From positions 39,926,014-39,990,013 of the forward strand of contig CP141144.1 in the NCBI GenBank assembly GCA_035235625.1: a stretch of 64,000 nucleotides of DNA, in the 5' to 3' direction. Position numbers and translations under genes: made by a program. The notes under the pieces were generated by a model. The model made no database searches and had not been told where the DNA came from. It was given only the letters and a program-made list of their open reading frames with translations. How positions within the stretch are numbered: the stretch's first letter is position 1; every line of letters begins with the position of its first letter. This DNA comes from Saururus chinensis. Lineage: Eukaryota; Streptophyta; Magnoliopsida; Piperales; Saururaceae. This document shows positions 2,561 through 54,314 of the stretch, piece by piece.

Positions 2561-2714
2561 AAGAGGAATTTTATTTTGATTTTTTAAAATTTTTTATTAA
2601 TTTTTTTAAATAAAAAATAATTAAAATAAAATATTAATAGCGATGTATAGGACTATACGTCGCTATTAGTATTTTACTTTTTTAATTTTTAAAATTATAA
2701 AAAATTATAAAAAA

Positions 2715-3330: not shown

Positions 3331-3589
3331 TACCAATTGCGACATTTTTTATCAAACGTCGCAATATGTAACGTAGTAGCGACGTTTCTAGAAAATGTCG
3401 CAATATGTAAAAGTAGTAGCGACGTGTTGTAGAAACGTCGCAATATGTAATGTGTTAGCGACGTTTTGGACGAAACATCGCAATATGTAAACGTTATAGC
3501 GACGTTTCGTACGATACGTCGCTAAAAAAAATACCGCACGGTGAATTTTCATTCTCCCGCGTGGGTGAAATCGTCCGCGCGGTATTTAT

Positions 3590-4170: not shown

Positions 4171-4743
4171 AACCGGGTTACTACCTGATTTGGTTTTTTT
4201 TCTTTTAATTCTTTTTTCTTTTAATAAAAAATAATTATTTTAAAATTTTTTTTAATACTTTTAACGACGCATTCATAAATGTCGTTAATTGTAATAATTT
4301 ATGTTTTATTTATAAATAAATTTTTTTTATTTGTCTAAATAATTATATACATTAGCGACGTTTACATAAACATCGCTAATACTAGTTTTTAATTTTTTTT
4401 AAATTATATTTTTAAAAAAATTTAAAAAATTATATTTTAATGAAAAAAATAAAAATAATATTTTTTATTAGCGACATTTGTGTAACGTCGCTAATACTAT
4501 ATTATTAGCGACGCTTAGTAAAAAGCGTCACTAATAATATACTAATAGCGACGTTTATTATACGTTGCTAATATATACTTTTAGTGACGTTTTGCTATGT
4601 ACGTCGCTAATATGCAATGATAACTGTAGTTTTATCGACGCATTTAACGACGTTTTTTAAGCGTCGCTAATACTTATTAGCGACATTTACAATATTATTA
4701 GTGACACTTAAAAGCGTCGCTAATAGTTATTTTTGTTGTAGTG

Positions 4744-11494: not shown

Positions 11495-12245
11495 ATGGCC
11501 TCTCCAAACCACTCTATGACCACGTCCGGCCTAACCCTAGGCTCTCCCTCTTCCCCATCCTCCTCTACGACACTCGATGACCTCTTCGCTCCTATGCCGG
11601 TGGTGGTTCGCTTCTTCATCTCTCAACTTGTCACTGTACGTTGTGACTCCAACACCTTTCTCATTTTCCATATTCAAGTTCGCGACCTCCTTGAGGGTTA
11701 CGGTGTCATGGGATTTCTTGATGGCTCCACCCCGTGCTCGGCCACAGGCGACCTCACTGCTTGCCTGCCTTACCACTGCCCAATGGCACTGCATTGATCG
11801 AGTACTTCTCACTGCTGTTCATGCCACCATCTCCCCTTCCTTGCTCAGCTACATAGGCCTTGAGTCCGCCGCTGCCTTTGGACCACAACCGAAGATCGCT
11901 TCCTCTCTACCTCCCCGGCTCACATCCTCAATGTGAAAGAATGTCTTGCCGCACATGTCCAAGGCGATGGCACTATGACCACATATCTCAACAGCCTTAA
12001 AGCCTATGCGGATCAACTCGCCGCTGTTGGGGCTCCCATCTCCGACCTTGACCTCTTTCATAAGACATTAAATTGTTTCTCTGGAGCGTACTTCATCTTC
12101 TCCGCCACCCACCATGCTCGCGGTGTTACCATTCCCCTCCCGGAACTTTGGATGCTTCTCCTTGCCGAAGAAGCCACTCTCTCTTGCGCCCCAACCGTAG
12201 GCTTACCCCAAGCGACGGCCTTCACTGCCCTCCACTCATGGTGTC
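11495..12245 (+). pseudogene. copia gag, frameshifted and interrupted
   Basis: The gag-like motifs LLEGYGVMGFLDGSTP (from about 11685) and TTYLNSLKAYADQLAAVG, then ISDLDLF, match plant copia gag (UBN2/Retrotran_gag_2 type), but they lie in different frames. The polyprotein is split by the solo LTR at 12246. No CCHC zinc knuckle can be made out after the insertion. Confidence 0.75.
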
Positions 12246-13666
12246 TGATCGTTTATAATTAAACTCTTTGCAAGTGTACAAGGTAATTGTACTAGGATAA
12301 GTATTTAAGGGTTGTCGAACCTCAGGGACGGATGGATTATTACTAAATATAAAGAAGAATTTGCTGATTAAAAACTAAAATAAACTTAAACTTAAATTAA
12401 GCAAAAGAAAGAAATCAACTAGTTTAAAAGTAAGAGATTAATATGATGAAATTTACTTAGGAAATTGAATCCACTATAGAACCATAATAATTCCTTAACT
12501 TTTAATCTAAATCTAGTGTGAATATGAACAAGTATTCTCAGCTACAAGCTAGAATTACTTTAGAAAGAATCATTAATTAAATTCCATGGCATGAGTTATC
12601 TTCGACAATAGCACGGATCATCTACACTAAACTAGTTATAGGCATGACCCGTCTAATCTTAGTATAACTCATCCAAATCATTAATTATCTGAACATTAAA
12701 ACTATTGTATGACCATCTCATCTAAATCACAGAAATTAGAATCGATGCAAATATCAAAACCATATCAATCTATCATCTACAAGACAATAAATCAACATAG
12801 ACTTGAATAAACATGAAAAACTCTTCCATTAAAAAGGAAATCCATATTATACAATTGTCATCATTCACAACTGAGATCTAAATTAAAAAGAAAAGAAACT
12901 GAAACTTATCTATAGCTTAATTAACTCCTAAGTAGAAAAAAAGTCTAGCCTTCCATGGTAGAAGAAAGAACTTGAATCTCCATTAGAAACTTTTAATTCT
13001 CTTCCATCTTCTTCTTCCTTTTTCTCCTCTTAAAATCTACTGGAATCCCCCCAATTTTAAGCCAAATATGTCTTTTTATAGGCATAAGTTCCGTAGGAAA
13101 AAGTCCAATATGAAAAGGATTGGAATTTGGGTCAAACAAGGAAACTGCACGTTATACCGATCGATCGCCCTGCATGCCCGATCGATCACTTACACTGTAT
13201 TTTTGTTTGAAAACACGTTATCCCGATCGATCGCCCTACATGCCTGATCGATCGGCTACAGTGTTTCTGCAATCCTAGACAGTTCATATTCTGTTCATTA
13301 AGCTTTCCTTCGTGTCCATATTAATTTCTAACTTGTTTATAACTCCGAAAAGTTGTCCAAATCACTTTAAAGCATGCGAAGATTATTTTCAATCATTTCA
13401 AACATCGTTCAAGTACTTCGATAAGCGCACTTTACCTACAAAACATAAAATACCATATTTTAGACATGTAGAATATAATTAAAATTCCATCTTGATTTAA
13501 ATACATGTCTAAACAACTAATAACTACAAAATCATTAATAATTAAACTAAAATACTAATATCTATCTTAATCTAAATAAACTATAATTAACTCTAAATTA
13601 ACCTAATCTATACTATCAAATAAGGTAAAAAGGCATATAAAATAGATATAGATTTCATACTTATCA
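12246..13666. mobile_element. Solo LTR A, nested in copia gag
   Basis: This 1421-bp sequence runs from TGATCGTTTATAATT to TTTCATACTTATCA and is flanked by a perfect 5-bp duplication GTGTC (12241-12245 and 13667-13671). TG..CA ends plus a 5-bp duplication and no internal domain mean a solo LTR, left by recombination between two LTRs. It is closely similar over its whole length to 48515-49878. Superfamily is not certain; the conserved AAGTGTACAAGGTAATTGTA and GGGTTGTCGAACCTCAGGGA stretches suggest Ty3/gypsy. Confidence 0.92.
13157..13255. repeat. Duplicated GATCGATC hairpin in solo LTR A
   Basis: Two tandem copies, 66 bp apart, of the frame ACGTTAT.CCGATCGATCG. The second has a perfect 10-bp stem, CCGATCGATC (13223-13232) against GATCGATCGG (13246-13255), with a 13-base loop. 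The sister LTR at 49424 has only one copy and a different stem. Confidence 0.85.
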
Positions 13667-14001
13667 GTGTCCCTCTCTTTCGGCTAGCTATGGGGCCCTA
13701 CCTCCAGCCTCTCCCCCCACTGCCCCCAGCCCCACTGGGCTGCCTCCCACCTCTCCTTATGGCCTCCCCCGCCTGCTCCCCTTAGTGGCCTTGCTACTGC
13801 CCCCCCTGCCGGGGGCCCAGCCCTTGCACTTGCTGCCCCATATGGGGGAGGGGCTGCCTGGGGCCTTCTCCTTACCCCTGCTGGCCGTGGGGCACCCGCC
13901 CACGTGGTGGTTCTCCTCATGGACGTTGGTGCTCCGATCCTCACAGTCATGGTCCCCAATCCCCTTATCAGATTTGCGGTGGGACCAACCACTCTGCCAG
14001 A

Positions 14002-14391
14002 ATGTGTTGGGAGTGCAATTCCAGCCCTGGGGGCTCGTCCTTCAATGCTCTGGCCCTCTCCGCTGGCACCTCCTCCTCGGAAACTCATACAGAGTCGCTC
14101 CTTGATAGTGGTGTCTCAGACCACGTGACAACGGATCGCGGTAACCTCTCCTTCCATGTGCCTCACTTGACATCTGACCATGTCAACGTCGGGAACGGGG
14201 CAGCTTTACGTGTCTCATCCATGGGTCACACCACCCTCCATCTTGGCCCCTCTACCCTTTCTCTTCGCAATGTCTTACATACCCCATCTATCTCTCATAA
14301 TCTTCTTTCCGTTCATAAACTTGCTCTTGATAATAATTGTTCCCTAAGCTTTGATGTCTCTTATGTTACAATCCAAGACACTAGCTCTTAG
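14002..14391 (+). pseudogene. copia protease region
   Basis: LLDSGVSDHVTTD is the aspartic protease active site region of copia elements (usual form LDSGASHH). VNVGNGAALRVSSMGHTTL and LRNVLHTPSISHNLLSVHKL follow, the normal conserved stretches up to the integrase precursor. The frame ends at TAG 14389-14391 and decays into another frame before the next domain. Confidence 0.85.
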
Positions 14392-14433: not shown

Positions 14434-15340
14434 GTGTCCTCCACCCTTACCACATCTCCCACTGCCCTACTTGCTTATGACTCCTCCCGCCTTTGGCATC
14501 ATCGGCTCGGACATCCGTCATCTACTATGTTTAATTTAGTTGCATCTACTTTGTTGCCTCCAATCCAAAAAATGTCATCCTTAGATTGTAATAGTTGTCT
14601 CACTAGTAAAGCGCACAAACTCCCCTTCTCACCCTCCCCGAAATGCTCCTCACACCCTCTTGAGCTCGTCCACTCGGATGTTTGAGGTCCTTCTCCGGTC
14701 ACCTCCTTTCTTGGCTTTCGCTATTATGTGATCTTCGTCGATGACTTCTCCCATTATACTTGGCTCTACCCCCTCAAACTCAAATATGATGTGACCGAAT
14801 GCTTCTGCCTATTCCATGCCATGGCTGAATGGACCCTCCACCACACCCTCACCACCCTCCACACAGACAATGGCCGTGAATACCTCAACCACCACCTTTC
14901 TTCTTACCTCTCCTCTCATGGCATCTCCCACCAAACCTCCTGCCCTCATACCCCCGAACAAAATAGCGTTGCCTAAAAGAAACACCGGCACATCATAGAA
15001 ACTACGCTTGCCCTCCTCTCCCACGCCCACATGCCTCTCTCCTATTGGGTGGATGCTACTTGCAACGTCATCTATCTTATCAACAGCCTACCCTCTCCCT
15101 CCCCACAAACCCCCCAACTACTCCCACCTCAAAGCCTTCGGTTGCCGCTGTTTCCCTTGGACCCACCCCTACTCCTTCCATAAACTCTCCCCCCGGGCCA
15201 TCCCATGCATCTTTCTCGGTTATTGCCCTAACACCAAAGGATTACATTACCTCGATCCCATCTTCCATTGCGTCTACACCTCCTGCCACGTCCGTTTTCG
15301 AGAAGATAAGTTCCCTTACCACGACCACCTCCCTACCCCA
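14434..15340 (+). pseudogene. copia integrase, catalytic Glu replaced by stop
   Basis: The precursor motif LLAYDSSRLWHHRLGHPSS is followed by a Cys pair (CNSC) and LELVHSDV. A TGA at 14683-14685 replaces the Trp of the HSDVWG motif. FVDDFSHYTWLYPL and TLHTDNGREY carry two catalytic aspartates. In HTPEQNSVA*KKHRH the normal Glu codon of the D,D(35)E triad is now TAA (14974-14976). A frameshift near 15100 moves the C-terminal part (HLKAFGCRCFPWTHPYSFHK, IFLGY) to another frame. Confidence 0.9.
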
Positions 15341-15624
15341 AACCCCCCCACCACACTCCCTCTTCCTATTTCCATCACTCCCTCCCCTCCCCCATCCCTA
15401 CCCCTACCCCCCACCCGCCTTCACAACAACCACCCCCCTCTCTCCCTCCCCTTCTAACTCTCCTCCTTCTCTTCTTCCACTCCCTGCCACACTCCTTTCC
15501 CCGGACACCCCGCCTCCCCGTCCCCCTTTCCCTTTCCCTCTCCCCCTCCCCCCGCCTCCCCTCCCCTCCCCTCCCCTCCCCTCCCTCCCCTCCCCTCCCC
15601 TCCCCTCCCCTCCCCCCTCACCCA
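15341..15624 (+). repeat. C/T-rich linker with CCCTC repeats
   Basis: The region between integrase and reverse transcriptase has expanded into a pyrimidine tract, with about twelve CTCCC units at 15555-15616. The minus strand is GGGGA repeats and meets the simple G-quadruplex pattern. Confidence 0.85.
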
Positions 15625-16316
15625 ATGATCACTCATAGCAAAGCTGGGATCATATGTCATCGTGTCCCTTTCTCCCTCCTCACTATCTCTCCACCTCAAA
15701 TTGAACCCTCTTCCTTCAAAATTGCTTCCTCCATTCCTGAATGGTATGCCGCTATGGATGAGGAAATTAAAGCCCTCCACAAACAAGATACTTGGAGCTT
15801 AGTGGTTCCCCCGCCCTCCTCCAATGTTGTTAGTTGCCGTTGGACTTACAAAGTCAAGCGTGATGCCAATAGAACTATCTCTCACTACAAGGCCCGTCTT
15901 ATTGCCAAAGGGTTCCATCAAGAGGAAGGCCTTGACTACAATGAGACATTTAGACCCTTGATCAAACCTTACACGGTTCAGATTGTTCTAAGCCTCGCCG
16001 TCACCCGCTCTTGGCCTATCGAGCAACTCGATGCCTCCAATGCCTTCCTTCACGACACTATCTTCGAAGAACTCTACATGGCACAACTTCCCGGTTACCA
16101 TGATGTCACTCGGCCCAACCATGTTTATCGCCTCCACAAAGCCCTCTATAGCCTCAAACAAGCCCCTCGTGTTTGGTACATTCGCCTTTCCACCTACCTT
16201 CTCTCCCTTAACTTTATCTCTTGTCATGTTAATACCTCCCTTTTTCTTCACACCTAAGGTTCTCACATCACCATCCTTGTCATATATGTTGATGACATCC
16301 TCATCACTAGCAACCA
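15625..16316 (+). pseudogene. copia reverse transcriptase, N-terminal part
   Basis: The motifs of RVT_2 are present: EWYAAMDEEIKALHKQDTW, CRWTYKVKRD, KARLIAKGFHQEEGLDY, WPIEQLDASNAFLH, YSLKQAPRVWY. A TAA at 16255-16257 interrupts the frame. LVIYVDDILI, with the catalytic YVDD at 16285-16296, follows in the same frame. A run of 22 C residues at 16318-16339 then breaks the reading frame. Confidence 0.92.
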
Positions 16317-16317
16317 T

Positions 16318-16339
16318 CCCCCCCCCCCCCCCCCCCCCC
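16318..16339 (+). repeat. (C)22 homopolymer in reverse transcriptase
   Basis: A pure C run just after the YVDD motif. It shifts the frame between the two halves of the reverse transcriptase. Confidence 0.95.
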
Positions 16340-17220
16340 ACATCCACCGAGTCATTTCCCTCTTAAGCTCCACCTTTTCCATTAAAGACCTCGGCGACCT
16401 CTATCACTTCCTTGGCATTGAAGATACCCGCACCCCCAATGACCTCTTCCTCTCCCAACCCCAATATGCCCTTGATATCCTTGCCCGTGCCTCTATGTCC
16501 CAATGTAAAGCTTCCCCAATCCCCACCACCTACAAACGCCCTCCCCTCCATCCCCACGACCCACCCTTCCCCAACCCCTCTCATTACAAAAGCATTGTTG
16601 GCGCCTTACAATACCTCACCTCCACCCGTCTCGACCTTGCCTATGCCATCAACTTCGTTTGCCAACACATGCACAACCCCTCCACCTCTCACTATATGGC
16701 TGTTAAAAGAATCATTCGCTACCTCAAAGGTACCTTCACTCCTGCTCTTTGTGCCTTCTCTTACTCCGATTGGGCAGGTAACCCCATTGATCACCGGTCC
16801 ATTTCCAGTTACTGTCTCTACCTCGGTCCCAACCTCATTCTTTGGAAGTCTAAGAAGCAAGACACAGTGGCCCGCTCCTCTACCGAAGCCGAGTATCGGG
16901 CTCTCTCCAGTACAACCACTGAGATCACGTGGGCCCGCATGGTCCTCACCTTCCTTGGAGTGTCCCTCCCCTCCACCCCCATCTTATGGTGTGACAACAA
17001 ATCCACCATCTCTCTCTCGGCCAACCCGGTGTTCCACGCCCAAACCAAGCACATTGAACTTGATCATCACTATGTTCGGGAGTAGGTTTTAGCTGATAAG
17101 CTTGATGTCCAGCATACTCCCTCCGCTCAGCAGGTGGTTGACATCTTCATCAAGCTTCTCTCCATCGAACGGATTCAGCAGTTACGCTCCAAACTCATGG
17201 TTCTACCTCCACCATAAATT
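16340..17220 (+). pseudogene. copia reverse transcriptase C-terminus and RNase H
   Basis: LSSTFSIKDLGDLYHFLGIE, SIVGALQYLTSTRLDLAYAI and VKRIIRYLKGT are the thumb region of copia reverse transcriptase. FSYSDWAGN, STEAEYRALSS and LWCDNKSTISLSANPVFHAQ are the RNase H motifs with their acidic residues, followed by HYVRE, a stop at 17083-17085, and VLADKLDV. This is the best preserved stretch of the element. Confidence 0.92.
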
Positions 17221-18565: not shown

Positions 18566-19033
18566 TTAGAACACGGGCCCCATCAGCCTCGGCAAACCAT
18601 AGATAGGAAGAGGAAGCCTCCTCCTCAAAACTGCAACTGGGGCTATGGCCATTTCTGAAGGCAAGGTGGTGGTGGCCATCTCATCCTCACTGGTAGGCGC
18701 CTTCATTGCACCGTCCGCAGGCACGCTATCGGACTTGCAGAAGTTCTTGGCCTTGTCCATGTGCGACAAGGCCTCGTCCTTGGTGAAGTCGATGCCCGGC
18801 CTGAAGTTCTGAAACCAGCAATACTTGGTGGTGTCATGGAAGAGGACCTTGCAGCATGAAGGGCTTACTGAAATGGTTTTGCTAGCGATGCTGTCTATGA
18901 GTGAGCTCTTGCAGGTTGCAAAGTCTGCGGAGCAGTTAGGGGCGGTGAAGACTTCATTGTCAGCAACGACCCCGGCGACGGAAAGGAGGCCGACGAGGAG
19001 AAGAACAGATATTAGTCTCATCACTTTCATCAT
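18566..19033 (-). CDS. Small secreted cysteine-rich protein
   Basis: A 155-residue protein with a clear signal peptide (LISVLLLVGLLSVAGVVA, cleavage near residue 24-25). The mature part has six cysteines at about residues 34, 41, 60, 61, 72 and 99, spaced C-x6-C-x18-CC-x10-C-x26-C. The adjacent CC pair recalls the prolamin/lipid-transfer eight-cysteine fold, but the CxC motif and last cysteine are lacking, so membership is only possible. The C-terminal third is low complexity with an RRR run and a hydrophobic end; the true C-terminus could differ if an intron is present. The start has a good context (CACCATGATG), with a TATA box about 95 bp upstream and AATAAA downstream. Neighbours are transposons. 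I infer an extracellular protein of unknown role. Confidence 0.75.
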   Translation of the reverse strand: MMKVMRLISVLLLVGLLSVAGVVADNEVFTAPNCSADFATCKSSLIDSIASKTISVSPSCCKVLFHDTTKYCWFQNFRPGIDFTKDEALSHMDKAKNFCKSDSVPADGAMKAPTSEDEMATTTLPSEMAIAPVAVLRRRLPLPIYGLPRLMGPVF

Positions 19034-19126
19034 GGTGATCGAGTGACGAATCTGTTGCTAGCACCTACGCCGGTCCTCCTCTTAGTTCTATAGAATGGGG
19101 CAAGAGGAAGATAGATGTAGAACTGG

Positions 19127-21593: not shown

Positions 21594-23255
21594 CTTTGTA
21601 ATCAACATATAATTACTTACCAAATTTATTATCTTATTACCCAAATATGTATAACCCATTCTCACCCTGTGGCATAACTATTGGTTGAAAAACATGTTGG
21701 AAACACACAAAAACAATCATACAGTATAGCACAAGTTAATTACCCATCCATGCTAAAGTTAAAAACCCTAATTTTAGTGTTATAACTGATTTGAATTTTG
21801 GGGAGGATACTTGGACATCCGATGCTCACAAAATTTAGAACATAGTCAATTTAAGAAGTCAATGACTTCAAATTAAATTGACATTACATTTTGACACCAA
21901 AACTATTTAGTCTAGAACTCTAAAAATTATGGCAGTGCTGAAAATTTTGAACAATTGGATCCCAAAGATTACAAATCAATGATACACACAAATCAAATGA
22001 TCACAAGAAATTTGGAAGCAACCTGATAAAAAAGTAGGAAAAATTTAGGATCATGGAATCACAAAATTGTAATGGCCTTATAGTGATTCTAGAAAATTTA
22101 ATAATTCAAAATTAAAATATAAAAATCCTAAAAAATATAGTTTGAAATTAGACTCATTTATGAACATTCACTAATTTTCGTAGCCAATTCCATAAAGAAA
22201 AGCCCTTGAAATTAAGTCATAAACTTAGGAGTTCCACCAACTAGATGAAAGTAAATTCTAGAGAAGAATAACTTTTTAATGGGATAAACTCAACCAAGAT
22301 TTGTGAAAAGTTTACCAAACTGATACGAAAAAGTCATGAACATGATCTCGGTGAAAATTCAGCCCAAAATACAATTAGACGGCCAAACGAAAATGACTAT
22401 TTTAGATGTATAGTGTAAACCAAGGTGAATAATCATTAAATAGAAGGACTCTAACACAAGTTCACGAATTCTATCATCAACATACCACATGAACTTAGCA
22501 ACCACATGATTCATCCACATGAATATAGGCCTAAATCAAACTACCACTGAAAATCACCACAAGAATGTAAATTAGCAAGTGTAGGTCATTTACCTATTAA
22601 TTAAATTTAAAAAACATTGATTCGAAGAAGTGAAGAAAAGCAAGATCCTTTCTTAATCAAACCTTAATTCGTAGAAGAAAGACTTAGGCCCTTGCTTCTG
22701 AGAATTCAATTAAATTTAATAACATTGAAACCCCCGATTCTCTTACATTGAGACAACCCTAATAATCTCAAACTAGCCCTCTAATTGGGGTGAGAGTTGA
22801 GGAGAATTCAGCAAGAAGATTATCTGATCATAGGGGTTGTTCAAGGCTCTTTGATAGCTTTTCTATGGTGGTTTTCTTCAATTCATAAGTACAAGAATAA
22901 TAGAGATGGTGGAAGAAGAAAGAGAAGAAAAGAAGGAGAGAAAAAGAAAGAGATAGGGGGAGACAAGCTGAGAAAGAGAGAGCAAGGGGAGAGGGGGATG
23001 AGCCAATAAGAGGGGGGGAGAGAGAGAAAGAGGCGCGGTGGGTGGGATGTAAGCTTATCTAATTGGATGAATTAGGAATTATCTTCAATTTAGTGTCTAA
23101 GTAGACCCTTTTGGATGGGCGAGAAGGCTTGCCCAATGTGCACCTAGGTTTTACCTATCCAGTTACCTATTTACCCAATTTCTATTAAAATGAAGCCGAA
23201 CAAATTTTAAAAAATCTAATTTTTTTCTAGAATTGATAGAAAATCAAGGTGTTAC
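20558..23255 (-). mobile_element. Ty3/gypsy LTR-like sequence, minus strand
   Basis: The high-coordinate end reads, on the minus strand, GTAACACCTTGATTTTC, like the TGTAACACC start of Tekay/Del-type gypsy LTRs. The layout just inside (A-rich blocks, purine tract at 22905-23035) resembles the minus-oriented LTR at 58159-60741. No coding domain is present. The low-coordinate boundary is a guess. Confidence 0.35.
21540..21590. repeat. (TA)n microsatellite, about 25 units
   Basis: Uninterrupted TA dinucleotides. Confidence 0.95.
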
Positions 23256-23607
23256 TCTCTCTGTCTCTCATGATCCCTTCATTTAGTAGCTGTCAAATAC
23301 AATCCACTTTTTGGAATAGTACACTATTATTTTGTAACCAAGGATCACCCAAAGGTCACCCTTAATGTCCTTGCTAGTCACTAACATTCTTATTAAACTC
23401 TAGTTTGGTCATTCAAACCCAACTAATCATACTTTGGACCCCTCTTCGACAAGTCAAGGCCCTGTAAAACTGCCTTCTAAGTACCCTCCAAGACCAGTTG
23501 TGGTTCTAAGGAAAGCCCATAGAGCCCCACCTCAACAACCCATTTATACATATATAAGAAGTACTATGCCTTTATGAGGGTCTCGAAATCAAATAATGTA
23601 ATTTTCC
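23256..23607. other. Unique flank before the 1.3-kb array
   Basis: No gene is seen. Its last bases (ATGTAATTTTCCC) lead into the first copy of the array unit and probably represent the original flank of that unit. Confidence 0.5.
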
Positions 23608-25948
23608 CTTATTTCCCTTTCCGTTTTCTTTGTTATATCATTCCAATTCCCTTCAAGAGGATGCCCGATAGGTTGAGGAGCCTGTTGGAGTTACCCACAA
23701 GTGTTTTCTAACAAGCCTTTCTTCTATATTTTTTTGTGCATTTAATTTCACTCGATTTCATCTGTTATTAACCATTTATTAGGTATCTTATCAAAGAGTG
23801 TTAACCACTAAGACTATCTCTAGTATCAATTACATCTTAAGCTCCTTAGTTCCATGTTTCTACTCAATTCTTCATAAGAATCATATTAAAATCATACTTA
23901 TATGCTTTTAACATGTTCAAAGCAACACAACAACTCAAAACTTTATTGATAGATAATAATCCTACCTTTGAGTTTAGTAATTTTTAATGGAAATTCACCT
24001 TCTCTAACCATGATATTCACTTTCTTCACTTCCTCCACTTTGAAATCTCCTGAATCCAATGTAAACCCTTGTTTTCCATAGCTCTGGATGTCTCCTCTAG
24101 CATAACGGTTCAACCGGCCAGGTCAGACTATCTCAGCTGGGTCAATTAGGCCTGGAAACCAGGAGAAAAAAACCCATTTTTTTATAAAGGCTATAGTCGG
24201 TCGAACCGGCCAGGTGGGGTTCGCTTTTTAAAACATTGGTCATTAATTGATTCAGAGCCTTCCAAAAACCGGTTCGATGGCTGCTCTCCGGGTTCCTAAA
24301 ATGTGGAGACCTCTCCGACTTTTGCTGACGACCGAGGGTTTGAGGGACCTCAGACTGTGAAACTCTGCTATGGCTTCACGTTGAAGGAGGCTCCGAGCGG
24401 CTACCATCGACAACGCCACCGGAGACAAAAAGGGTTTTTAGCAAATCCAATATCATTCAAAAGGGTACACTTGCTTCCCCGTTTTCTCCTCTTTATGACT
24501 TCTTTTCCAATAAATTTACTTTTTGGTAAAGATGTGTGTCGAGTTTTTGATTGCAAGTAGCGTAAATGGTTTGAACTATAATAGCAAGATAGGATCTTCA
24601 TATATTGAACTCCCTTAAGAACAAGGAAGTACTTTTTCCATATTGGTTTTTTACTATTGATGCAGATTTCGGAACAGAACCTGCATAGAAAGAGAGGGCA
24701 CCTCCGATGCCCAAGTCAGATGCAGAATAATTTAGGAAAATGAAAAGAGTCCCCCGTTTAGGAGCATGTGGTGTAATCTTTATATACCTTGATTGCAGGA
24801 GGTGGTTGTAACACCTTTTAATTAGTCAAAGGGTTACCTTTGAGTTAGTCAAAGCCCCACACGTTGAATTTCCATTGGTGGTTACCTATGAGTTAGTCAA
24901 AACTCCCTTATTTCCCTTGCCATTTTCTTTGTTATATCATTCCAATTCCCTTCAAGAGGATGCCCAATAGGTTGAGGAGCCTGTTGGTGTTACCCACAAG
25001 TGTTTTCTTACAAGCCTTTCTTCTATATTTTTTTTTGTGCTTTTAATTTCACTCCATTTCATCTGTTATTAACCATTTATTAGGTATCTTATCAAAGAGT
25101 GTTAACCACCAGGACTATCTCTAGTATCAATTACATCTTAAGCTCCTTAGTTCCATGTTTCTACTCAATTCTTCATAAGAATCATATTAAAATCATACTT
25201 ATATGCTTTTTACATGTTCAAAGCAACACAACAACTCAAAACTTTATTGATAGATAATAATCCTACCTTTGAGTTCAGTAATTTCTAATGGAAATTCACT
25301 TCTCTAATCATGATATTCACTTTCTTCACTTCCTCGACTTGAAATCTCTTGAATCCAATGCAAACCCTTGTTTTCCATAGCTCTGGATGTCTACTCTAGT
25401 ATAACGGTTCAACCGGCTGGGTTAGACTGTCTTGGCTGGGTCAATTAGGCCTGGAAACCCGAAGAAAAAAACCCATTTTTTTATAAAGGCTGTAGTCGGT
25501 CGTATTGGCCAGGCGGGGTCCACTTTTTAAAACATTGGTCGTTAATTGATTCAGAGCCTTCCAAAAACTGGTTCGATGGCCGTTCTCTAGGTTCCTAAAA
25601 CGTGGAGACCTCTCCAACTTTTGCTAACGACCGAGGGTCTGAGGAACCTAAGACTGTGAAACTCTGCTACGGCTTCACGTTGAACGAAGCTCCAGGCGGC
25701 TACCGTCGACAACGCCACCGGAGACGAAAAGGGTTTTTAGTGAATCCAATATCATTCAAATAGGTACTCTTGCTTCCCCGTTTTCTCCTCTTTATGACTT
25801 CTTTTCCAATAAATTTACTTTTTGGTAAAGATGTGCGTCGAGTTTTTGATTGCAAGTAGCGTAAATGGTTTGAACTATAATAGCAAGATAGGATCTTCAT
25901 ATATTGAACTCTCTTAAGAACAAGGAAGTACTTTTTCCATATTGATTT

Positions 25949-25953
25949 ATTAC
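25949..25953 (+). other. Target-site duplication (ATTAC), array side
   Basis: ATTAC stands directly before TGTTGATGC, the LTR terminus, in copy 2. The same ATTAC follows the other end of the retroelement at 32234-32238. Copy 3 has the variant ATTAT. Confidence 0.8.
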
Positions 25954-28499
25954 TGTTGATGCAGATTTCGGAACGGAACCTGCATAGAAAGAGAGGGCAC
26001 CTCCGATGCCCAAGTCAGATGCAGAATAATTTAGGAAAATGAAAAGAGTCCCCCGTGAAGAGACATACCTTGTAGTTTATATTAGGAGCATGTGGTGTAA
26101 TCTTTATATACCTTGATTGCAGGAGGCGGTTGTAACACCTTTGAATTAGTCAAAGCTCCACACGTTGAATTTCCATTGGTGGTTACCTCTGAGTTAGTCA
26201 AAGCTCCCTTATTTCCCTTACCGTTTTCTTTGTTATACCATTTCAATTCCCTTCAAGAGGATGCCCGATAGGTTGAGGAGTCTGTTGGAGCTACCCACAA
26301 GTGTTTTCTAACAAGCCTTTCTTCTATATTTTTTTTTGTGCTTTTAATTTCACTCCATTTCATCTGTTATTAACCATTTATTAGGTATCTTATCAAAGAG
26401 TGTTAACCACCAGGACTATCTCCAGTATCAATTACATCTTATGCTCCTTAGTTCCATGTTTCTACTCAATTCTTCATAAGAATCATATTAAAATCATACT
26501 TATATGCTTTTAACATGTTCAAAGCAACACAACAACTCAAAACTTTATTGATAGATAATAATCCTACCTTTGAGTTCAGTAATTTCTAATGGAAATTCAC
26601 TTCTCTAATCATGATATTCACTTTCTTCACTTCCTCCACTTGAAATCTCTTGAATCCAATGCAAACCCTTGTTTTCCCTAGCTCTGGATGTCTCCTCTAG
26701 CATAACGGTTCAACCGGCCAGGTCAGACTATCTCAACTGGGTCAATTAGGCCTGGAAACCCGGAGAAAAAAACCCATTTTTTTTATAAAGGCTATAGTCG
26801 GTCAAACCAGCCTGGCGGGATCCGCTTTTTAAAACATTGGTCGTTAATTGATTCAAAGCCTTCCAAAAACTGGTTCAATGGCCGCCCTTCGGGTTCCTAA
26901 AACGTGGAGACCTCTCCGACTTTTGCTGACGACAGAGGGTCTGAGGGACCTAAGACTGTGAAACTCTGTTACGGCTTCACGTTGAAGGAAGCTCCGGGCG
27001 GCTACTGTCGGCAACGCCACCGGAGACGAAAAGGGTTTTTAGTGAATCCAATATCATTCAAAAGGGTACTCTTGCTTCCCCGTTTTCTCCTCTTTATGAC
27101 TTCTTTTCCAATAAATTTACTTTTTGGTAAAGATGTGCGTTGAGTTTTTGATTGCAAGTAGCGTAAATGGTTTGAACTATAATAGCAAGATAGGATCTTC
27201 ATATATTGAACTCTCTTAAGAACAAGGAAGTACTTTTTCCATATTGATTTATTATTGTTGATGCAGATTTCGGGATAGAACCTGCATAGAAAGAGAGGGC
27301 ACCTCCGACGCCCAAGTCAGATGTAGAATAATTTAGGAAAATGAAAAGAGTTCCCTGTGAAGAGACGTACCTTGTAGTTTATATTAGGAGTATGTGGTGT
27401 AATCTTTATATACCTTGATTGCAGGAGGCGGTTGTAACACCTTTGAATTAGTCAAAGCTCCACACTTTGAATTTCCATTGGTGGTTACCTCTGAGTTAGT
27501 CAAAGCTCCCTTATTTCCCTTGCCATTTTCTTTGTTATACCATTTCAATTCCCTTCAAGAGGATGCCCGATAGGTTGAGGAGCCTGTTGGAGCTACCCAT
27601 AAGTGTTTTCTAACAAGCCGCCTTTCTTCTATATTTTTTTTTGTGCTTTTAATTTCACTCCATTTCATCTGTTATTAACCATTTATTAGGTATCTTATCA
27701 AAGAGTGTTAACCACCAGGACTATCTCCAGTATCAATTACATCTTATGCTCCTTAGTTCCATGTTTCTACTCAATTCTTCATAAGAATCATATTAAAATC
27801 ATACTTATATGCTTTTAACATGTTCAAAGCAACACAACAACTCAAAACTTTATTGATAGATAATAATCCTACCTTTGAGTTCAGTAATTTTTAATGGAAA
27901 TTCACCTTCTCTAACCATGATATTCACTTTCTTCACTTCCTCCACTTTGAAATCTCCTGAATCCAATGTAAACCCTTGTTTTCCCTAGCTCTGGATGTCT
28001 CCTCTAGCGTAACGGTTAAACTGGCCAGATCAGACTATCTCAACTGGGTCAATTAGGCCTGGAAACCCGGAGAAAAAAACCCATTTTTTTTATAAAGGCT
28101 ATAGTCGGTCAAACCGGCCTGGCGGGGTCCGCTTTTTAAAATATTGGTCGTTAATTGATTCAGAGCCTTCCAAAAACTGGTTCAATGGCCGCCCTCCGGG
28201 TTCCTAAAACGTGGAGACCTCTCCGACTTTTGCTGACGACAGAGGGCCTGAGGGACCTGAGACTGTGAAACTCTGCTACGACTTCACGTTGAAGGAGACT
28301 CCGGGTGGCTACCGTCGGCAATGCCACCGGAGACGAAAAGGGTTTTTAGCGAATCCAATATCATTCAAAAGGGTACTCTTGCTTCCCCATTTTCTCCTCT
28401 TTATGACTTCTTTTCCAATAAATTTACTTTTTGGTAAAGATGTGCGTCATGTTTTTGATTGCAAGTAGCGTAAATGGTTTGAACTATAATAGCAAGAGC

Positions 28500-28748
28500 A
28501 AACCTGCATAGAAAGAGAGGGCACCTCCGACGCCCAAGTCAGACGTAGAATAATTTAGGAAAATGAAAAGAGTCCCCCGTGAAGAGACGTACCTTGTAGT
28601 TTATATTAGGAGCATGTGGTGTAATCTTTATACACCTTGATTGCAAGAGGCGGTTGTAACACCTTTGAATTAGTCAAAGGGTTACCTCTAAGTTAGTCAA
28701 AGCTCCACATGTTGAATTTCTATTGGTGGTTACATATTATCCTCGTCA
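28500..28748 (-). mobile_element. 3' LTR of the Tat-like element (one end lost)
   Basis: It aligns with 32047-32233 and with the LTR parts of array copies at 24655, 25954 and 27256. The CATCAACA end is missing here through the copy 4 deletion. Confidence 0.85.
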
Positions 28749-28770
28749 GTTGCCCCCCCTCCCCTCCTTT
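28749..28770 (-). other. Polypurine tract
   Basis: On the minus strand AAAGGAGGGGAGGGGGGG, then CAAC, directly precedes the TG of the 3' LTR. Confidence 0.85.
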
Positions 28771-28794
28771 GTCTTTATACGTAGGACTTGTTTG

Positions 28795-29071
28795 TCTTTA
28801 GTTTTTAAGTCCTTCCTTTAGCCAATTTGGATTGGACATGGCCAGGATAACTTTAGTTTTTAACGTCCTTTAGCCAATTTGGACTAGACATGGTCAGGAT
28901 GACTTTAGTTTTCAACGTCCTTCCTTTAGCAAAGTTGGACTAGACATAACCAGGATGATTTTAGTTTTTAACATCCTTCCTTTAGCCAATTTGGACTAGA
29001 CATGACCAGGATGACTTTAGTTTTTAACGTCATTCCTTTAGCCAATTTGGACTAGACATGGCTAGGATGAC
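28795..29071 (-). repeat. Tandem repeat of about 57 bp, five copies
   Basis: Units carrying TTTAGCCAATTTGGACTAGAC and CAGGATGACTTTAGTTTT start near 28817, 28869, 28925, 28981 and 29037. They lie between the end of pol and the polypurine tract, where Tat/Ogre elements often carry tandem arrays. Confidence 0.9.
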
Positions 29072-29150
29072 TTTCTTTGAATATTTTAAAATTATTTAAA
29101 TGTAGAAAGAAACATTGTTATTTTATTGCTTTGAAAATAATGTTTTTACA

Positions 29151-29403
29151 TCACTGATAAAATTTCCTTAGATGCTCTGCATTCCAAGGATGGAGCACTG
29201 CTCGTCCTTCAAGATCTTCAAGCCAATATGTCCAATGTCTATTAATCTTAATTACTTTGTAAGGTCCTTCCCAATTCGGACCAAGTTTTTTTTGCTCTGA
29301 CCTCTTGTGTATTTTGGAATATCTTCCTTAATACTAGGTCGCCTTCATTAAAGGATCTCCCTTTGACCTTTTTGTTGTAGTACTTTGACATCCTTTTTCT
29401 TTT
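29151..29403 (-). pseudogene. gypsy integrase C-terminal tail
   Basis: The minus strand reads MSKYYNKKVKGRSFNEGDLV and LRK. After a one-base frameshift in an A run near 29290 it continues NWEGPYKVIKIN and LHPWNAEHLRKFYQ, then a stop at 29151-29153. This is the usual end of Tat-type integrase. It follows gag directly, so the rest of pol is deleted. Confidence 0.88.
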
Positions 29404-30755
29404 ATGTGAATGCATCTTTCTGGGCTGCTCTCACATCTTCTAGGGTAATATACTTTTAAGCCATACAGAGAAGTTTAGTCATATCTATAAGGGGATTTTT
29501 AGTAAGTGAATCCTGAAATCGTCCCAGGAAAAGGTTAGCAGTGAGGGCAGTGGTAGCCAAACTACCATTGCCTTTGTCAGTTTGTGTGAGCTCATTGCTG
29601 AATCGAGACACAAAGTCCCTAAAGGATTCGCCTTTTGTTTGTTTTAGGGTAAGGAGGTAATCAGGGCCTCAACAAAGTTTCCTACTCTTGATGAATCTAC
29701 TAATGAACATTTTACCAAGTTCTTCAAACGAATTTATTGACTTTGGTTGGAGGCGATGAAACCATGTAAGAGCTGGTCCCTTAAGACTTGTTGCAAAAGC
29801 TCGACACGTAAGAGGTTTGCCTCCCCTATATAGGGCCATCAAATATCGGTAGTACCGAAGATGGTCAGTGGGATCAGTAGTACTATCATATTGTTCAAAC
29901 ATTGGAGGAACAAATTTCTTCGGTAGTTTCGCTCCATGATTTCTTGTGAGAAGGGAGGTTCTGTGAGACCAAGGAAGGCCTCTGGATCTTCTGAATGACA
30001 GACCCTTTGCTTTTTCTTGATTTCTTCCAAGTGAGCCCCAATTATGCGAAGATGTTCATCAACATGGTCTTGAACGTTTGTATGACGAGATAACGCCTCA
30101 TGGTTATTTTGAGGAATGCGTGATGGAGCTTTGATACTCTCACCCATTTCTGAATGACGAGAGGCTAAATGGGCGTGAGGTGCAAGGCTAGAGGGACAAT
30201 CGTCTCTTCTAGAAAGAAGCCTATGATGGCTATGGTTTTCATTGCCGTGAGTATCTCTTCTATGATGGGACCGATGTTCTGAATGTCGGTGGGATACTGG
30301 GTGAAGGCTATTCCCATGTTGACGGTGTTGAGGAGGACTTTGGATGTGCTCACGAATATCTTGTTGGTCTTGGCGTAAGGCTTCAACCATGTTGGCCAAA
30401 GTTTGAACATAGTCCACCAAAGACTGTACTTGAGTACCAATGTCCTGTCCCACCAAGGTCGATTGCGGCATCATTCCTTCTTAGTTAAGAGGCAAGTGCG
30501 GTGATACTACATCCCCTGAGGTTTGATGATAGGGGGGCGTTGTCCCTCACGCAACATCATTGCCTCTTGGTTGATAGGAACTTGAAGAGGAAGTATAATA
30601 CTTGAAGTTTGACCAACTGAAAGATGCTGTCCTCCACGTGAAGTTATTGTCTCTTGTTTTAAGAGAACTTCTTCATTATATATCTCTTTTTGAGGAGCAA
30701 ATAATTTTCCCGATTGGGTTGTCACCGTCTCATTTTTTTTATTGCACAAGTACAC
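29404..30755 (-). pseudogene. gypsy gag (Tat type), frameshifted
   Basis: The first part (30755-30507 and 30474 to about 29910) is a long Gln/His/Arg-rich N-terminus with LVDYVQTLANMVEALRQDQ, a likely coiled coil. A frameshift near 29905-29950 leads to MFEQYDSTTDPTDHLRYYRY, ALTWFHRLQPKSI and FEELGKMFISRF, the Retrotrans_gag domain. A TGA follows at 29669-29671, then the same frame reads GESFRDFVSRFSNEL and KYITLEDVRAAQKDAF. There the sequence joins the integrase tail. The zinc knuckle is gone. Confidence 0.88.
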
Positions 30756-32024
30756 TATTAGATTAGAAAAAATTTTATGTCAATAATAAGACCCACAATA
30801 CGGCCTTTCACAACACAACTTGTAACAAGCTTGGTGATCATCCAAAGTGACTTAAACTATTCCCCTCAAGGTTAGCGAATGTCATTAATAACCATTGAAT
30901 GTGATAAACCCCAAAAGCATAGACTTCACTTCGATTGCTCTATGGGCTGATAGGACCATTCCACTACAAATGGATGGTCTTACTGACTGAAAAAAGTTCG
31001 GATATAAGTGAAAGGAGTTGCAGCCGGTCTTGTGCACTTATACGTGAACTCACAGCGGGTTCCTTAGAAACAGAGTACTGTAGGCAGTTTTTCCTGAGCT
31101 TACAAACCGCACCGGACTTTTATGCATCCAGAAATTTTAATCCGCGATCCAACTTCAAGCCGACCGTCAAGCTGGTTTCACAGAGCTAGTTTGACAGGTG
31201 CGATTCCAGTCTCGTTCCAGATCTTCCAAACCGTAGTCCGGCTTCAAACCGCATCAGATTTTTCCGCGGGGAGATCTGGCTTCGATCAGTTCGGATCTGG
31301 CGCTGGGATGGAGGGGCGAACGAAGCCGCACCGGTTTTCGCCTTCGAAATCTGTCGGCAAGGAGGGGCGATCTTTCAGCCCAGATCCAGCGCACCGGATC
31401 CCGCCTTCAATCAACTCGAACCTGGCTTTGAAATCCGCTGGGGAGGAGGGACGAGCAAATTTCTCCGAAGTCCAGAGCTTCTAAACCCAGATTTTTCCGC
31501 GGCGATTTCTCCCACGGTCCAGCTTCAAACCGACCTCCTCTGAGCGAACGAAGCTGCACCGGTCGTAGGCTAGTTTCTGCCCGGAGTCACCTTCAACGGG
31601 AAGTCTTCTTCCCCTTTTTTTTTATATTTGACCGATTTCGCAACGGTGAAAGTCCGTTCCTTTTTTTTTTATGGATCTGTTCTCGACGAACTTGACCGAT
31701 TTCACAACGGAAAAAGGCCTTTTTTTTTAGATCTGTTCCGGCGAACTTCAGATTTCACAACAGAGAAAGGCTTTTTTTTATCTATATGGGGCACACGACC
31801 CGACTTCTACCGAGCCACATCGATGTCAAGTAAAAATTTGACAACGAGAGCTGTATTCGGGATTGAGTCGAACGAGAAGTGAGATCCCATAATTCTTCAG
31901 TTCATCTGCTGCTTCTTCTGGCTTTCCAGATTCATCCAAAATTGTTTTTCTTGTTCGCCGACGGGATGAGTACCAGTGTCTGCTTTTCACCGAGAAAGAG
32001 AAAAGGAGCCGGAAAAGCCTTTCC
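30756..32024 (-). mobile_element. Leader of the Tat-like element
   Basis: About 1.3 kb between the primer-binding site and gag, with several related blocks (CTTCAAACCG, AGATCTGGCTTCGA, ACAACGGA..AAGGCC) on the plus strand. No protein family is seen. Confidence 0.6.
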
Positions 32025-32046
32025 GTTCCCACAGGCGGCGCCAAAC
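32025..32046 (-). other. Primer-binding site of the Tat-like element
   Basis: On the minus strand the LTR end CATCAACA is followed by GTTTGGCGCCGCCTGTGGGA. TGGCGCC.TCTGTGGGA-type sites are usual in Tat/Ogre elements. Confidence 0.8.
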
Positions 32047-32233
32047 TGTTGATGCAGATTTCGGAACGGAACCTGCATAGAAAGAGAGGGCACCTCCGAC
32101 GCCCAAGTCAGATGCAGAATAATTTAGGAAAATGATAAGAGTCCCCCGTGAAGAGACGTACCTTGTAGTTTATATTAGAAGCATAAGCTCCACACGTTGA
32201 ATTTCCATTGGTGGTTACATATTATCCTCGTCA
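32047..32233 (-). mobile_element. 5' LTR of the Tat-like element (internally deleted)
   Basis: It has both termini (TGACGAGG and CATCAACA on the minus strand) but lacks about 70-80 bp present in the 3' LTR between TTAGAAGCAT and AAGCTCCAC. Confidence 0.85.
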
Positions 32234-32238
32234 ATTAC

Positions 32239-33051
32239 TCATTCTCTTCATGAATCAATCTCCTTTCTATGTTGAGATGGAACTACATTACTACTTCTGC
32301 TGAAGTCTTCATAAATATTTGCATTTTTCTTTGTTTGTTTTCAACTTCTTATTGAATTCTCATTTTTTCCTGTTAATACTTCCAATTTCCTGAACGCTTG
32401 TACGGTTAACTTTGGAAAAAAAAGAAGAAAAATGAACAAAAATAACTTTAATGTGTTACTTATTTTAAATTTAATAATGTGGTTTGAGGAAAAAAATACA
32501 ATCCATGGTTCCTGTGAGTGGCAACATACGTCAGGGATCAGTCTTGCTGTGACTCGAGTTGGGTGTTGTTAGTACGGTCTGCTGTATGGCAATCTCTCGT
32601 CATATGTATAAGTCCATGACTGATATGTGGCATTGGGGGGTTCCTTATGCAATTTGTGCTTTTCATCTCAAGATTAGAAAGGATTTTTTAATATCAATTT
32701 GAAATTAGTCTTAACAATCTGCTGGAAAATACATATATTGAAAAAGTAATTATTAATCTTTGTTTAATTAAGGATGTAAGTGTTAACTTCACATTGCCTG
32801 TTGGTGCGTCTTTAATGGATAACAATAAAGTCAATAAGTTTTATTATTGGCTGTTGGCTCTCACTGAATTTTCAATTTCCCCCTATTTCCCCCTATTTCT
32901 TCTCTTGCTTTCTTAAGAAGAATGGTGGATTAGTTGGGAACCATCAATTCTCCTATTAATTTCCATTAGATTTTCTTTTCCAATTGAATTGACTGCTTTA
33001 CAAATTTTAGATTGTTTCTTTTCTACACAAGTTTTTTATCATGCATTTCAG
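32239..33051 (+). promoter_or_regulatory. Upstream region of the ARM-like gene
   Basis: AT-rich sequence between the retroelement and the first coding exon. The acceptor-like ATGCATTTCAG at 33041-33051 suggests that an untranslated first exon and an intron lie here, but I cannot place the exon. Confidence 0.4.
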
Positions 33052-39820: not shown

Positions 39821-40346
39821 TTATACATACACCCATGTAACTTTTATCAAAAGTAAGTATAAATTCTTTTCAGCTTTCAAATTTTCTACTTATACTATGT
39901 GACTTTTGTCAAAACTAGATATAGAACCTTTTTACTTTCCAAATTCTACACTTGCACCCTTTGATCTTTGTCGAAACTAGAAGGGGGAGCTCGAGGGCTC
40001 ATCGCAGCCCTCGATGGCAGGAGCTGACCATCAGCAGAGCAAAACCGGTCAGGAGATGGGGAAGAGTGCAAGAAAAGAAGGGGTTATACATACACCCATG
40101 TAACTTTTATCAAAAGTAAGTATAAATTCTTTTCAGCTTTCAAATTTTCTACTTATACTATGTGACTTTTGTCAAAACTAGATATAGAACCTTTTTACTT
40201 TCCAAATTCTACACTTGCACCCTTTGATCTTTGTCGAAACTAGAAGGGGGAGCTCGAGGGCTCATCGCAGCCCTCGATGGCAGGAGCTGACCATCAGCAG
40301 AGCAAAACCGGTCAGGAGATGGGGAAGAGTGCAAGAAAAGAAGGGG
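39821..40346. repeat. Perfect 263-bp tandem duplication
   Basis: 39821-40083 and 40084-40346 are identical as read base by base. Each begins TTATACATACACCCATGT and ends GTGCAAGAAAAGAAGGGG. The unit mixes an AT-rich half and a GC-rich half containing the palindrome GAGCTCGAGGGCTC. Confidence 0.95.
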
Positions 40347-41850
40347 TGTGCGTGAGGGGGGTGGGGGGCTCGGTGTGGAGAGAGACTTGTTATATGCTTG
40401 AAAATTTGATCAGCTTGTTGTCCCTAAGTATGGTGGAATCATGGTTACCAGTGCTACGGAGACACTATAAACATGAATATTGTACTGTATTCTTCCTGCT
40501 TATATTGGCATGTAGGTTGTTGACTTTCATGCATCTCATTGCTCTCATATACTTGATTGATCTCCATAGGTTGCCCCGGGTTAGAGGGTTAGTTCTTAGA
40601 ACAAGGGGGTAAAACAATAAATGATACTCATGACAATGGATGGTCAGATGTGAGAATCATTCTTACGTATACACCTTACTTATGAATTAGATAAAAGAAA
40701 GATCATAGTTGTAGAACTACATTTTAACCCTAGACTTAATTGACTCAACTCCATATTTTTCTAGGGTCAAGGCCTTGATAAGTAAACTCCAGGAGAACTC
40801 CAACTGGCAAGATTCATCATGAATTGGCTGAGTCAACTCCAGAAGAATTCCCTGAAACTCCAATGAATATAGCCTTTATAAAGTCAGGTAAAATATTTTT
40901 TAATATTGTAAATGATTTTATCAACAAAGTTTATTTATGTATGTATGATGCTTTTATAGACTCTAATAGGAAAAAATGCTCTTATAAATTGATAAATCTG
41001 TACACAAATAAAAATAGCATACATAAGTCTTATTCAACTTAGTGAATACAAAAATATTACTCCCTCTGTCCTAAAATAAGACTATTTCATACTCGGTTTA
41101 CTTATATATCGCTCATTATATATGTAAATAGTACGTACAAGATTTCAATCTCACTCTGTATAGACTCCAAGTTGATTCAACCCCAGGACATTTCAAGTCA
41201 GAGTCTCAAGTTTTAAAATATAGAAAACCTCAATACCCATGCATCAGAGATGGTCTAAATGTTATAAGCACAGCTTTTTAGGAGATTTTTCCTGGGGAAT
41301 AACAGCCAATCGCTAAAAGTTTCTGCCATGGAATACGTATGCATGTCTATTTGTGAGCAGGCTAGCCTGAAGCAGACGCTAGTGAGTTTATATAAAATCT
41401 AGATGAAATGAACCACAGTAGTGAACACCTTGCATCCACGAATTACTTTGAAATTAAAGTTGAAACTGGATGTTAAATTATACATGAATAGAATTAAATG
41501 CTTTTCAAAGGGAAAAAACAGAGAGAATACTTTCAATCACCTCGAGCACTACCTCGTTGAATAACCTGTGACTTGTGGTTCCCAACAAAGTGTAAGATAA
41601 GATCTTTAGGAGGCTGCCGGGACCAGGGGAAAACCCAATCATGTTTACTTTTACCCTCAATGATAAACAAACAATATCCCAGTTGAAGCTTCTATAAGTA
41701 TTGGATGAGTTCAACCGCATATTTCCCTTTCTTTGTGGTGTTTATTTCTCCTATCTGCATCAAAGAAATCACTCTGAGGATCCAAAAAAATATTATATTT
41801 ACTTAGATCTGCACAACTTGAAGTTCTCCACTTCATACTTCATTCTTTCT
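40347..41850. other. Intergenic; one Stowaway-like end
   Basis: No gene is recognised. TACTCCCTCTGTCCTAAAAT at 41058 looks like one Stowaway terminus; I cannot find its partner. The stretch may also contain the missing last exon of the S4-domain gene. Confidence 0.45.
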
Positions 41851-46300: not shown

Positions 46301-48514
46301 ACAGATAACTAAATGCCTATAGCGGGATAAGCAAAAATGTTTGACCAATGTGGTTAAAACGAATGAATCATATGGTTAAAAGATTTTTGACATTTGAACA
46401 CATATATCAAAAGCATGTTTGACATATTGTTAAACACATAAATGCATGGCATTGTAAATCTTTAAACAAAGGCATATAACTGCAAGAATAAATATAAAAA
46501 CTTATATTAATACATAAGATAATCTAGCATCTATAATCATTACTGTTTATAAGAGTGATTCTATGATTATGGAAACTTATATTAATACATACGACTATCG
46601 AGCATCTATAATCCTTATACTCAATTGGCTTCTTGGATGACTGAAGCTTCTTCAGATAGCAGTGTAGCACTAGACTTGCGCTTCCTCAAATGAAATACAT
46701 ACATTTACAATCATCACTATATATTAGCATGATTTAATGCATCAGTTCAAGCGACTATAACACTCAACAAGCTTCTTCGATGACGGGCGCTTCCTCATAT
46801 AGTGGTGTAATACTAGACATGCGCTGTCTAAGATGTAATACAAAATGTTTTAACATCAGTATTAAAACAATTTGATAAAATCTTCAAAACATTTAAACAC
46901 TTCATTAAATTGTTTTAACAAAAATGTCAAAACATTTAAATACTATGTTAAATTATTTTCACAACATTATTAAAACAAATTGAAACATTTTAAAAACGAT
47001 TTAACAACATTGTCAAAACATTTTAACACAATGTTAGATTGTTGTAACTATGTGCTTAAACAAATTTCAAAAGTGCTAAAACGTTTTGATAGAAATATCA
47101 AACCATTTTGACACTATTGTTCTTCTTAAAGCAAAATAAAAATATTATATCCAAACAATTTAGAAGTGTAAAAACAAAAGTGAATTTCTTTAAAACAAAC
47201 ATTTTAGATGACAACATCAAAATCAAGAAATTTTATCCCAACATTTACAAAATAAAAATAAAGTCTTTCAAAAATAAACCTTTTTGATAACAACATTAAA
47301 ATCAATAAATTTTAACCAAATGTTTTAGAAGACCAAAATTATTTTTTTTCAAAAACAAACCTTTCAATAACAACATCAAAATCAAATAGTTGAAAATTTT
47401 GAAATGCATCTCCCAAAATGTTTGAACATCAAGGTTTAAATGATTTGAAAACAAATCAATACTTTTTAGTGTATACGTATAAAAATTTATATACTGGGAT
47501 GCGAGTATATGTTCTCTACAATAGGTACCAATTGATGGCCATTTTTCCAAATGCATTTGTTGCCTCTTCCACCAATTGGTGCATGAAATCATTCTTATAG
47601 ACAGTGATAGCCGGAGGACTAAAAGGGGCGAGGGGCAAAGGGAGATGGTCCATAAAGGGGGGGGGGGTAGGGGCAAATGGAGAGGGTCCGGAATAATTAT
47701 AGGGGTGAGGGGCGGTGGGCATAGAAGCCAATGAAGATGAGTTGGTTGTATGATGTCCCAGATTTTTCTGGGTTTTGAAAATTAAACACGTGGAAAATAG
47801 TGTGTTCACCCCTCTGATATTATCAATTGAATAAATTATTAAATAGATTGAATTTATGGCTAAAACCTATCTAATTAGAAAGTAGATAGAAAGAGCTTCG
47901 AAATGCCACAAAAAATGCATGAATCAAAGTTCGAATGAGGGATTTATGACCATTCAAAGTTCAACATATCGTGTAGAGCTTGTTTACCCAATTTAGATGT
48001 GTAGTCAATTTAAGTCGTTTTGCGGGCCCGATTATTTAGTGATGGAAATTATTAAAATATAGCCCAAGTGGTCCACCTTTGCCCAGGAGATTAGGGTTCC
48101 TAATCCCATAATTATAAAAGAGCTTCCTAGGGCTCAATGATGTGGGGGGGGGGGGGGGGCTTTTGGCTAGAGGGGGGAAGAATAGAAGCCACCGGGGAAG
48201 TTTTTCAGTGAAGGCAGACGATGACGGAGGCGAGGAGGAGCGAACTGAAAGATTGGTGGTTTAGCAAGGTAGGAAGCTTTGCCCAAATTTGATCTACTCC
48301 CTTTATTTGTCTTTTGAGTTATTGTTATAATTTTCTTGTTGAATATTCATGGTGGAGGTGCATATTATATATGTCAATGATAATATATGCACACACTGAG
48401 CTGTGGGCATGTTCTCACATAAGGGGAACAACCTTGTTGCTTTCATTTGAAAGTTAATTAGCTTTGTGGAAGGAAGATGTGCACTGACGGAGGACATAAC
48501 ACTCGTGCAAGTAC
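46301..48514. other. AT-rich intergenic, no gene recognised
   Basis: Rich in AACATTTTAAAC-like words up to 47400, perhaps the decayed end of the repeat region. A TATA-like ATTATAAAAG at 48111-48120 and a run of about 17 G at 48144-48160 precede the solo LTR. The minus-strand Pro-rich frame at 47516-47809 is not convincing. Confidence 0.45.
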
Positions 48515-54310: not shown

Positions 54311-54314
54311 ATTA

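Follow-up and report, generated by a model that had tools for sequence, protein, structure and literature searches.

A probable retrotransposon-seeded tandem duplication of flank and LTR sequence beside its parent element in Saururus chinensis

Tandem repeats that contain LTR sequence are already well known, and as a general view rather than a count they mostly come to notice once neither the parent element nor its insertion site is left. The closest match in composition that we found is Sobo of wild potato, whose monomer resembles the LTRs of gypsy elements, a satellite repeat and genomic DNA, as outlined in PMC3648361, which describes Tek et al. 2005. Like the array reported here, Sobo brings together in one tandem unit a part that resembles gypsy LTRs and other sequence that includes genomic DNA; however, the same paper gives a 4.7-kb monomer spread over ~360 kb, whereas the present array consists of four 1.3-kb copies and is still attached to its parent element and the target-site duplication (TSD) of that element. 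The maize repeats CRM1TR and CRM4TR are also tandem units with gypsy LTR sequence, and the authors of PMC3648361 propose that they began through illegitimate recombination and grew by gene conversion. According to the same paper they consist of LTR plus UTR and are wholly element-derived, whereas the LTR at the present locus is joined to outside DNA.

The parent element has relatives of its own in the literature. Some plant elements carry tandem repeats next to their 3' LTR, as PMC3305785 describes for Gmr9/GmOgre of soybean, and the 56-bp repeats beside the 3' LTR of this element resemble that arrangement. These 56-bp repeats lie inside the element and are separate from the 1.3-kb array. Macas et al. 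2009 reportedly described tandem repeats at the same position in plant elements. TR-GAG elements are non-autonomous and carry only gag (or gag and protease) between their LTRs, as defined in PMC6022998; the present element is similar in having LTRs, a gag domain and no reverse transcriptase match, and differs in its weak, below-cut-off remnant of an integrase end and its broken gag. Passages of four further sources (PMC9659126, PMC10702118, PMC12628747 and PMC4857426) offered general models only. Among the matches listed, judged by title and the start of the abstract, we recognised none that deals with an array of flank plus LTR still carrying its TSD, which is not to claim that none is in print. 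The locus shares with satellites a tandem unit that contains element sequence, but it is not a long, high-copy array, having four units here and none elsewhere in the window. The seeding of a satellite, as the first-pass annotation had it, therefore overstates what four copies amount to: the array is a retrotransposon-seeded tandem duplication, and not yet a satellite.

Within the window (the whole 64-kb stretch of DNA that was analysed), positions 23608-28748 are occupied by four head-to-tail units. Their starts, marked by CTTATTTCCC, lie 1299-1302 bp apart at 23608, 24907, 26208 and 27510, and CTTATTTCCC has no further occurrence in the window. A repeat search recovered families D1 to D4 with four copies each at a spacing of 1299-1308; the last spacing is shortened by a deletion in unit 4, to 1222 in D5 and 1245 in D9. 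Each unit joins ~1047 bp of flank DNA to ~250 bp from the LTR of the adjoining minus-strand element. In unit 2 (24907-26207), where the insertion border is best preserved, the flank measures 1047 bp (24907-25953) and the LTR 254 bp (25954-26207), which bears out an earlier reading of about 1050 bp of non-element DNA fused to about 250 bp of LTR. That reading also spoke of part of an LTR; the sequence is indeed LTR-derived, but nearly the whole LTR is kept, only the last 15 bp on the purine-tract side being absent. Unit 1 (23608-24906; flank 23608-24654) has a 25-bp deletion in its LTR part, which ends on the right in a re-used LTR block. Unit 3 (26208-27509) is a mosaic, resembling unit 4 over most of the first 780 alignment columns and unit 2 in one tract and at its right end. 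In unit 4 (27510-28748) the flank is truncated near 28497 by a deletion that took the flank end, the TSD and the LTR start; this unit continues into the complete outer end of the 3' LTR and the purine tract. The DNA preceding unit 1 is unlike LTR.

Pairwise identity between units is 93.6-96.2% in gap-free columns. This is too divergent for an assembly duplicate, an origin that was therefore ruled out. A blastn search (E 1e-3) with the array and element (23001-33000) gave no match elsewhere in the 64-kb window, and no Rfam family matched at gathering scores across it. Comparison of unit 2 with a plasmid collection also returned no match, a result uninformative on plant genomes. Among frames of at least 70 aa, one of 79-85 aa is open in the flank of three of the four units and has no Pfam match at E 0.1; a coding function for the flank was rejected, and we infer that the array is without function.

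The element itself lies on the minus strand. Its 3' LTR (28501-28748) has lost the flank-side end, and its outer end, ...CCTCGTCA, adjoins a stretch at 28749-28767, read by eye, which we take from the usual anatomy of LTR elements to be the polypurine tract. Some five 56-bp tandem repeats (28796-29074) separate this tract from the gag and integrase remnants. At 29154-29327 there is a weak match to the C-terminal part of integrase (PF18697, E 0.0099; PF24626, E 0.011; both below cut-off), which suggests that the element may be a deletion derivative of a longer one. The gag region (29459-30480) is in broken pieces: PF03732 matches above cut-off in 29672-30055 (E 3.8e-7) and Gag_p24_C below cut-off in 29459-29668 (E 3.3e-4), and the piece at 29842-30480 has no domain match. 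All 16 minus-strand internal frames of at least 50 aa were without a match to reverse transcriptase, RNase H or protease at E 0.01. Next to the 5' LTR, GGCGCCAAAC on the plus strand (32030-32046), of GGCGCC type, is presumably the primer-binding-site region; it was picked out by eye, from general LTR-element anatomy. Compared with unit 4, the 5' LTR (32047-32233, 187 bp) has an internal deletion of 84 bp. The element thus has a pair of LTRs with TG...CA ends and a short TSD, the left copy of the TSD being taken from unit 2 because it is gone from unit 4. The PF03732 gag family is linked to gypsy elements, and the element is probably of gypsy (Ty3) type; the assignment stays at probable because pol was not found and the pol gene order cannot be read, and the label of gypsy LTR given at first is to that extent plausible but unproven. 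Short LTR-internal repeats around TTAGTCAAAG vary in number (24811-24906, 26134-26207, 27436-27509 and 28658-28702), and are likely a slippage spot.

The surroundings contain other repeats and some open frames. A 263-bp segment stands twice in tandem at 39821-40347 with 100% identity, and is either a very recent duplication or an assembly duplicate. By blastn, 12245-13666 and 48514-49878, 36 kb apart, are 88% alike over ~1.4 kb; pieces of a copia-type pol (Pol_BBD in 13786-14388, RVT_2 in 15310-17082) follow closely downstream of the former. Long AG-rich arrays are found at 2251-3326 and 52685-55286, with short repeats of TAGCGACG type near them (1944-2058, 3354-3508, 4466-4592, 54190-54267 and 56416-56647), and together these are perhaps parts of related transposons. 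An open frame at 7449-8237 has B_lectin and S_locus_glycop domains and resembles the outer part of a plant receptor kinase, and one on the minus strand (18569-19057) has a Prolamin_like domain barely above cut-off.

The insertion border survives in the array. In unit 2, ATTAC (25949-25953) stands directly before the LTR end TGTTGATG, and the same ATTAC (32234-32238) follows the far end of the element, where CGTCA-ATTAC ends at 32238; both were where the first-pass annotation had placed them. The chance of a match at five of five bases is 0.0013 by base composition, although the border is partly set by the TG...CA rule, so that the figure is not fully independent. Only unit 2 keeps an exact copy. 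Unit 1 has TTTAC (24650-24654) and unit 3 ATTAT at the TSD position, one mismatch each, and unit 4 has lost it. The footprint, which had been proposed to be intact, is consequently not so at the element itself and survives in copies only, the unit that adjoins the element having lost the flank end, TSD and LTR start.

Units 1-3 share a joint that lies within LTR sequence. Each ends in GGTTAC-CTNTGAGTTAGTCAAA(G/A)CTCC, followed directly by CTTATTTCCC, and the transition from AGTCAAA(G/A)CTCC into CTTATTTCCC is common to all three. In unit 4 and the 5' LTR, by contrast, GGTTAC leads into ATATTATCCTCGTCA, which is the LTR end. What comes after GGTTAC in units 1-3 is similar to a block of the unit 4 LTR situated 48 bp earlier. 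In unit 1 this re-used LTR sequence (24881-24906) runs into the CTTATTT of unit 2; its counterparts are 26182-26207 in unit 2 and 27484-27509 in unit 3, from which unit 1 has two base differences. Six bases (GGTTAC) are shared at the step within the LTR and three (TCC) at the joint to the flank, in agreement with the few bases of homology noted at first. Homology of at least 3 bp occurs in 5.6% of random pairs, and the 3-bp joint is therefore weak evidence for a homology-based step. The null for this estimate paired LTR positions with flank positions, and is the wrong one for the 48-bp step within the LTR, where short repeats are to be expected. Because a 3-bp homology is combined with an LTR block re-used via 6 bp, serial template switching or end joining suits the founding joint better than simple slippage. 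Of the two processes originally suggested for the start, slippage is unlikely, having to move 1.3 kb on 3 bp, and template switching, in serial form, fits better; the re-used LTR block did not figure in that suggestion.

That the element inserted first, and that flank and 3' LTR were duplicated in tandem afterwards, is well supported, because the junctions between units fall inside LTR sequence. With ATTAC on both sides of the element, the order of events given in the first-pass annotation holds. LTR distances alone do not show that insertion came first, because the 5' LTR is no more distant from the units than pairs of units are from each other: in the 128 LTR columns that all five copies retain, the mean divergence is 5.1% between the 5' LTR and the units and 6.4% between units 1 and 2 on one side and units 3 and 4 on the other, a difference of -0.014 (95% -0.039 to 0.016). 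Dating the insertion against the first duplication by these 128 columns gave no resolution in time. Columns 1107 and 1122 fit a 5' LTR outgroup with units paired 1+2 and 3+4, whereas column 1075 contradicts this pairing by placing unit 1 with unit 3. At columns 1143 and 1186 all four units differ from the 5' LTR, in what may be changes private to the latter. Mismatches of unit 4 at columns 1074-1076 raise its LTR distances, and look like filler bases at its deletion and not substitutions.

Unit 3 carries the imprint of exchange between units. Over the flank, units 3 and 4 lie at a distance of 0.033, and the remaining five pairs at 0.053-0.068. The relationship changes along the alignment. In columns 1-370 units 3 and 4 differ at 5/367 positions and units 2 and 3 at 12/367; in columns 371-470 the differences are 1/98 for units 2 and 3, 1/100 for units 1 and 4 and 6/98 for units 3 and 4; in columns 471-780 units 3 and 4 are again the closer (13/310, against 33/309 for units 2 and 3). 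The signal is mixed in columns 781-960, with 7/180 differences between units 2 and 3 and 10/180 between units 3 and 4. At the right end unit 3 has a 23-bp LTR deletion and the joint in common with unit 2, despite having its closest flank match in unit 4. Among 22 flank sites, with one 1212 site and the LTR sites excluded, six consecutive sites of one pattern gave a shuffle p of 0.006; a run test over 90 sites gave p 0.0004, but includes unit-4-private sites and the joint itself and is not relied on. The mosaic of unit-4-like and unit-2-like stretches is the pattern expected from unequal exchange or gene conversion among the copies, and upholds the later unequal exchange that had been proposed.

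These data can be accommodated in one course of events. A gag-bearing and apparently pol-less LTR element, probably of gypsy type, would have inserted on the minus strand at ATTAC, into DNA that is single-copy in this window. One illegitimate event would then have copied almost the entire 3' LTR along with ~1.05 kb of the DNA beside it, producing [flank+LTR]-[flank+LTR-element]. In the path that we favour for the joint, which is about as probable as the one considered next, copying would have run until 15 bp short of the outer LTR end, moved 48 bp backwards at GGTTAC, re-read 21 bp of LTR and joined the flank at the 3-bp TCC. Unequal exchange and gene conversion among the 1.3-kb copies would have produced four units with a mosaic unit 3, and later deletions would have erased the border of the original insertion in unit 4 and a portion of the 5' LTR. 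The structure, the joint that units 1-3 have in common, the TSD match and the mosaic are shown by the sequence; we infer both that the first event was replicative and how many rounds followed. Whichever path made the joint, we are largely confident in the sequence of insertion, illegitimate duplication and then exchange.

The joint could also have formed, with the same order of events, by a single end joining, for example between staggered sister-chromatid breaks, from an LTR with an extra repeat block that unit 4 lost later. We regard this as a serious contender, if a little short of an even chance: the short LTR-internal repeats do vary in number between copies and a 3-bp homology is near chance, but the block is absent from both LTRs that keep the outer end (unit 4 and the 5' LTR), of which one absence could be explained by the 84-bp deletion in the 5' LTR. 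Far less probable is that the 1.3-kb unit is an ordinary repeat, either a long LTR or a composite element, that came to be tandem here by accident. LTR sequence does occur in every unit, and the comparison was confined to the 64-kb window; against this, the unit ends are CTTATTT and AGCTCC and not TG...CA, the LTR border with ATTAC falls inside the unit, the 64 kb hold no further copy, and the far LTR of the same element is without flank sequence. Within the window, the unit was accordingly rejected as a true long LTR. That the flank was tandem first, one copy then receiving the element and conversion spreading its LTR, is the least credible reading despite the observed exchange between units, since each joint between units falls within LTR sequence and such sequence accompanies all four flank copies; an array older than the element was rejected because of where the joints lie.

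Under the favoured order of insertion followed by duplication, the duplication might even have arisen during repair of the integration itself. We consider this improbable; it is suggested because the first duplication is inseparable in time from the insertion, because the copied piece ends 15 bp from the purine-tract end of the LTR, and because a double template switch is one way to read the joint. If true, LTR integration could directly seed a flank-plus-LTR tandem array. Because 9 kb hold the parent element, the TSD, the founding joint and a mosaic unit together, the succession of insertion, duplication and exchange can be followed here. The locus reveals no new mechanism but provides a useful worked case, a clean local example of a known origin of tandem repeats.
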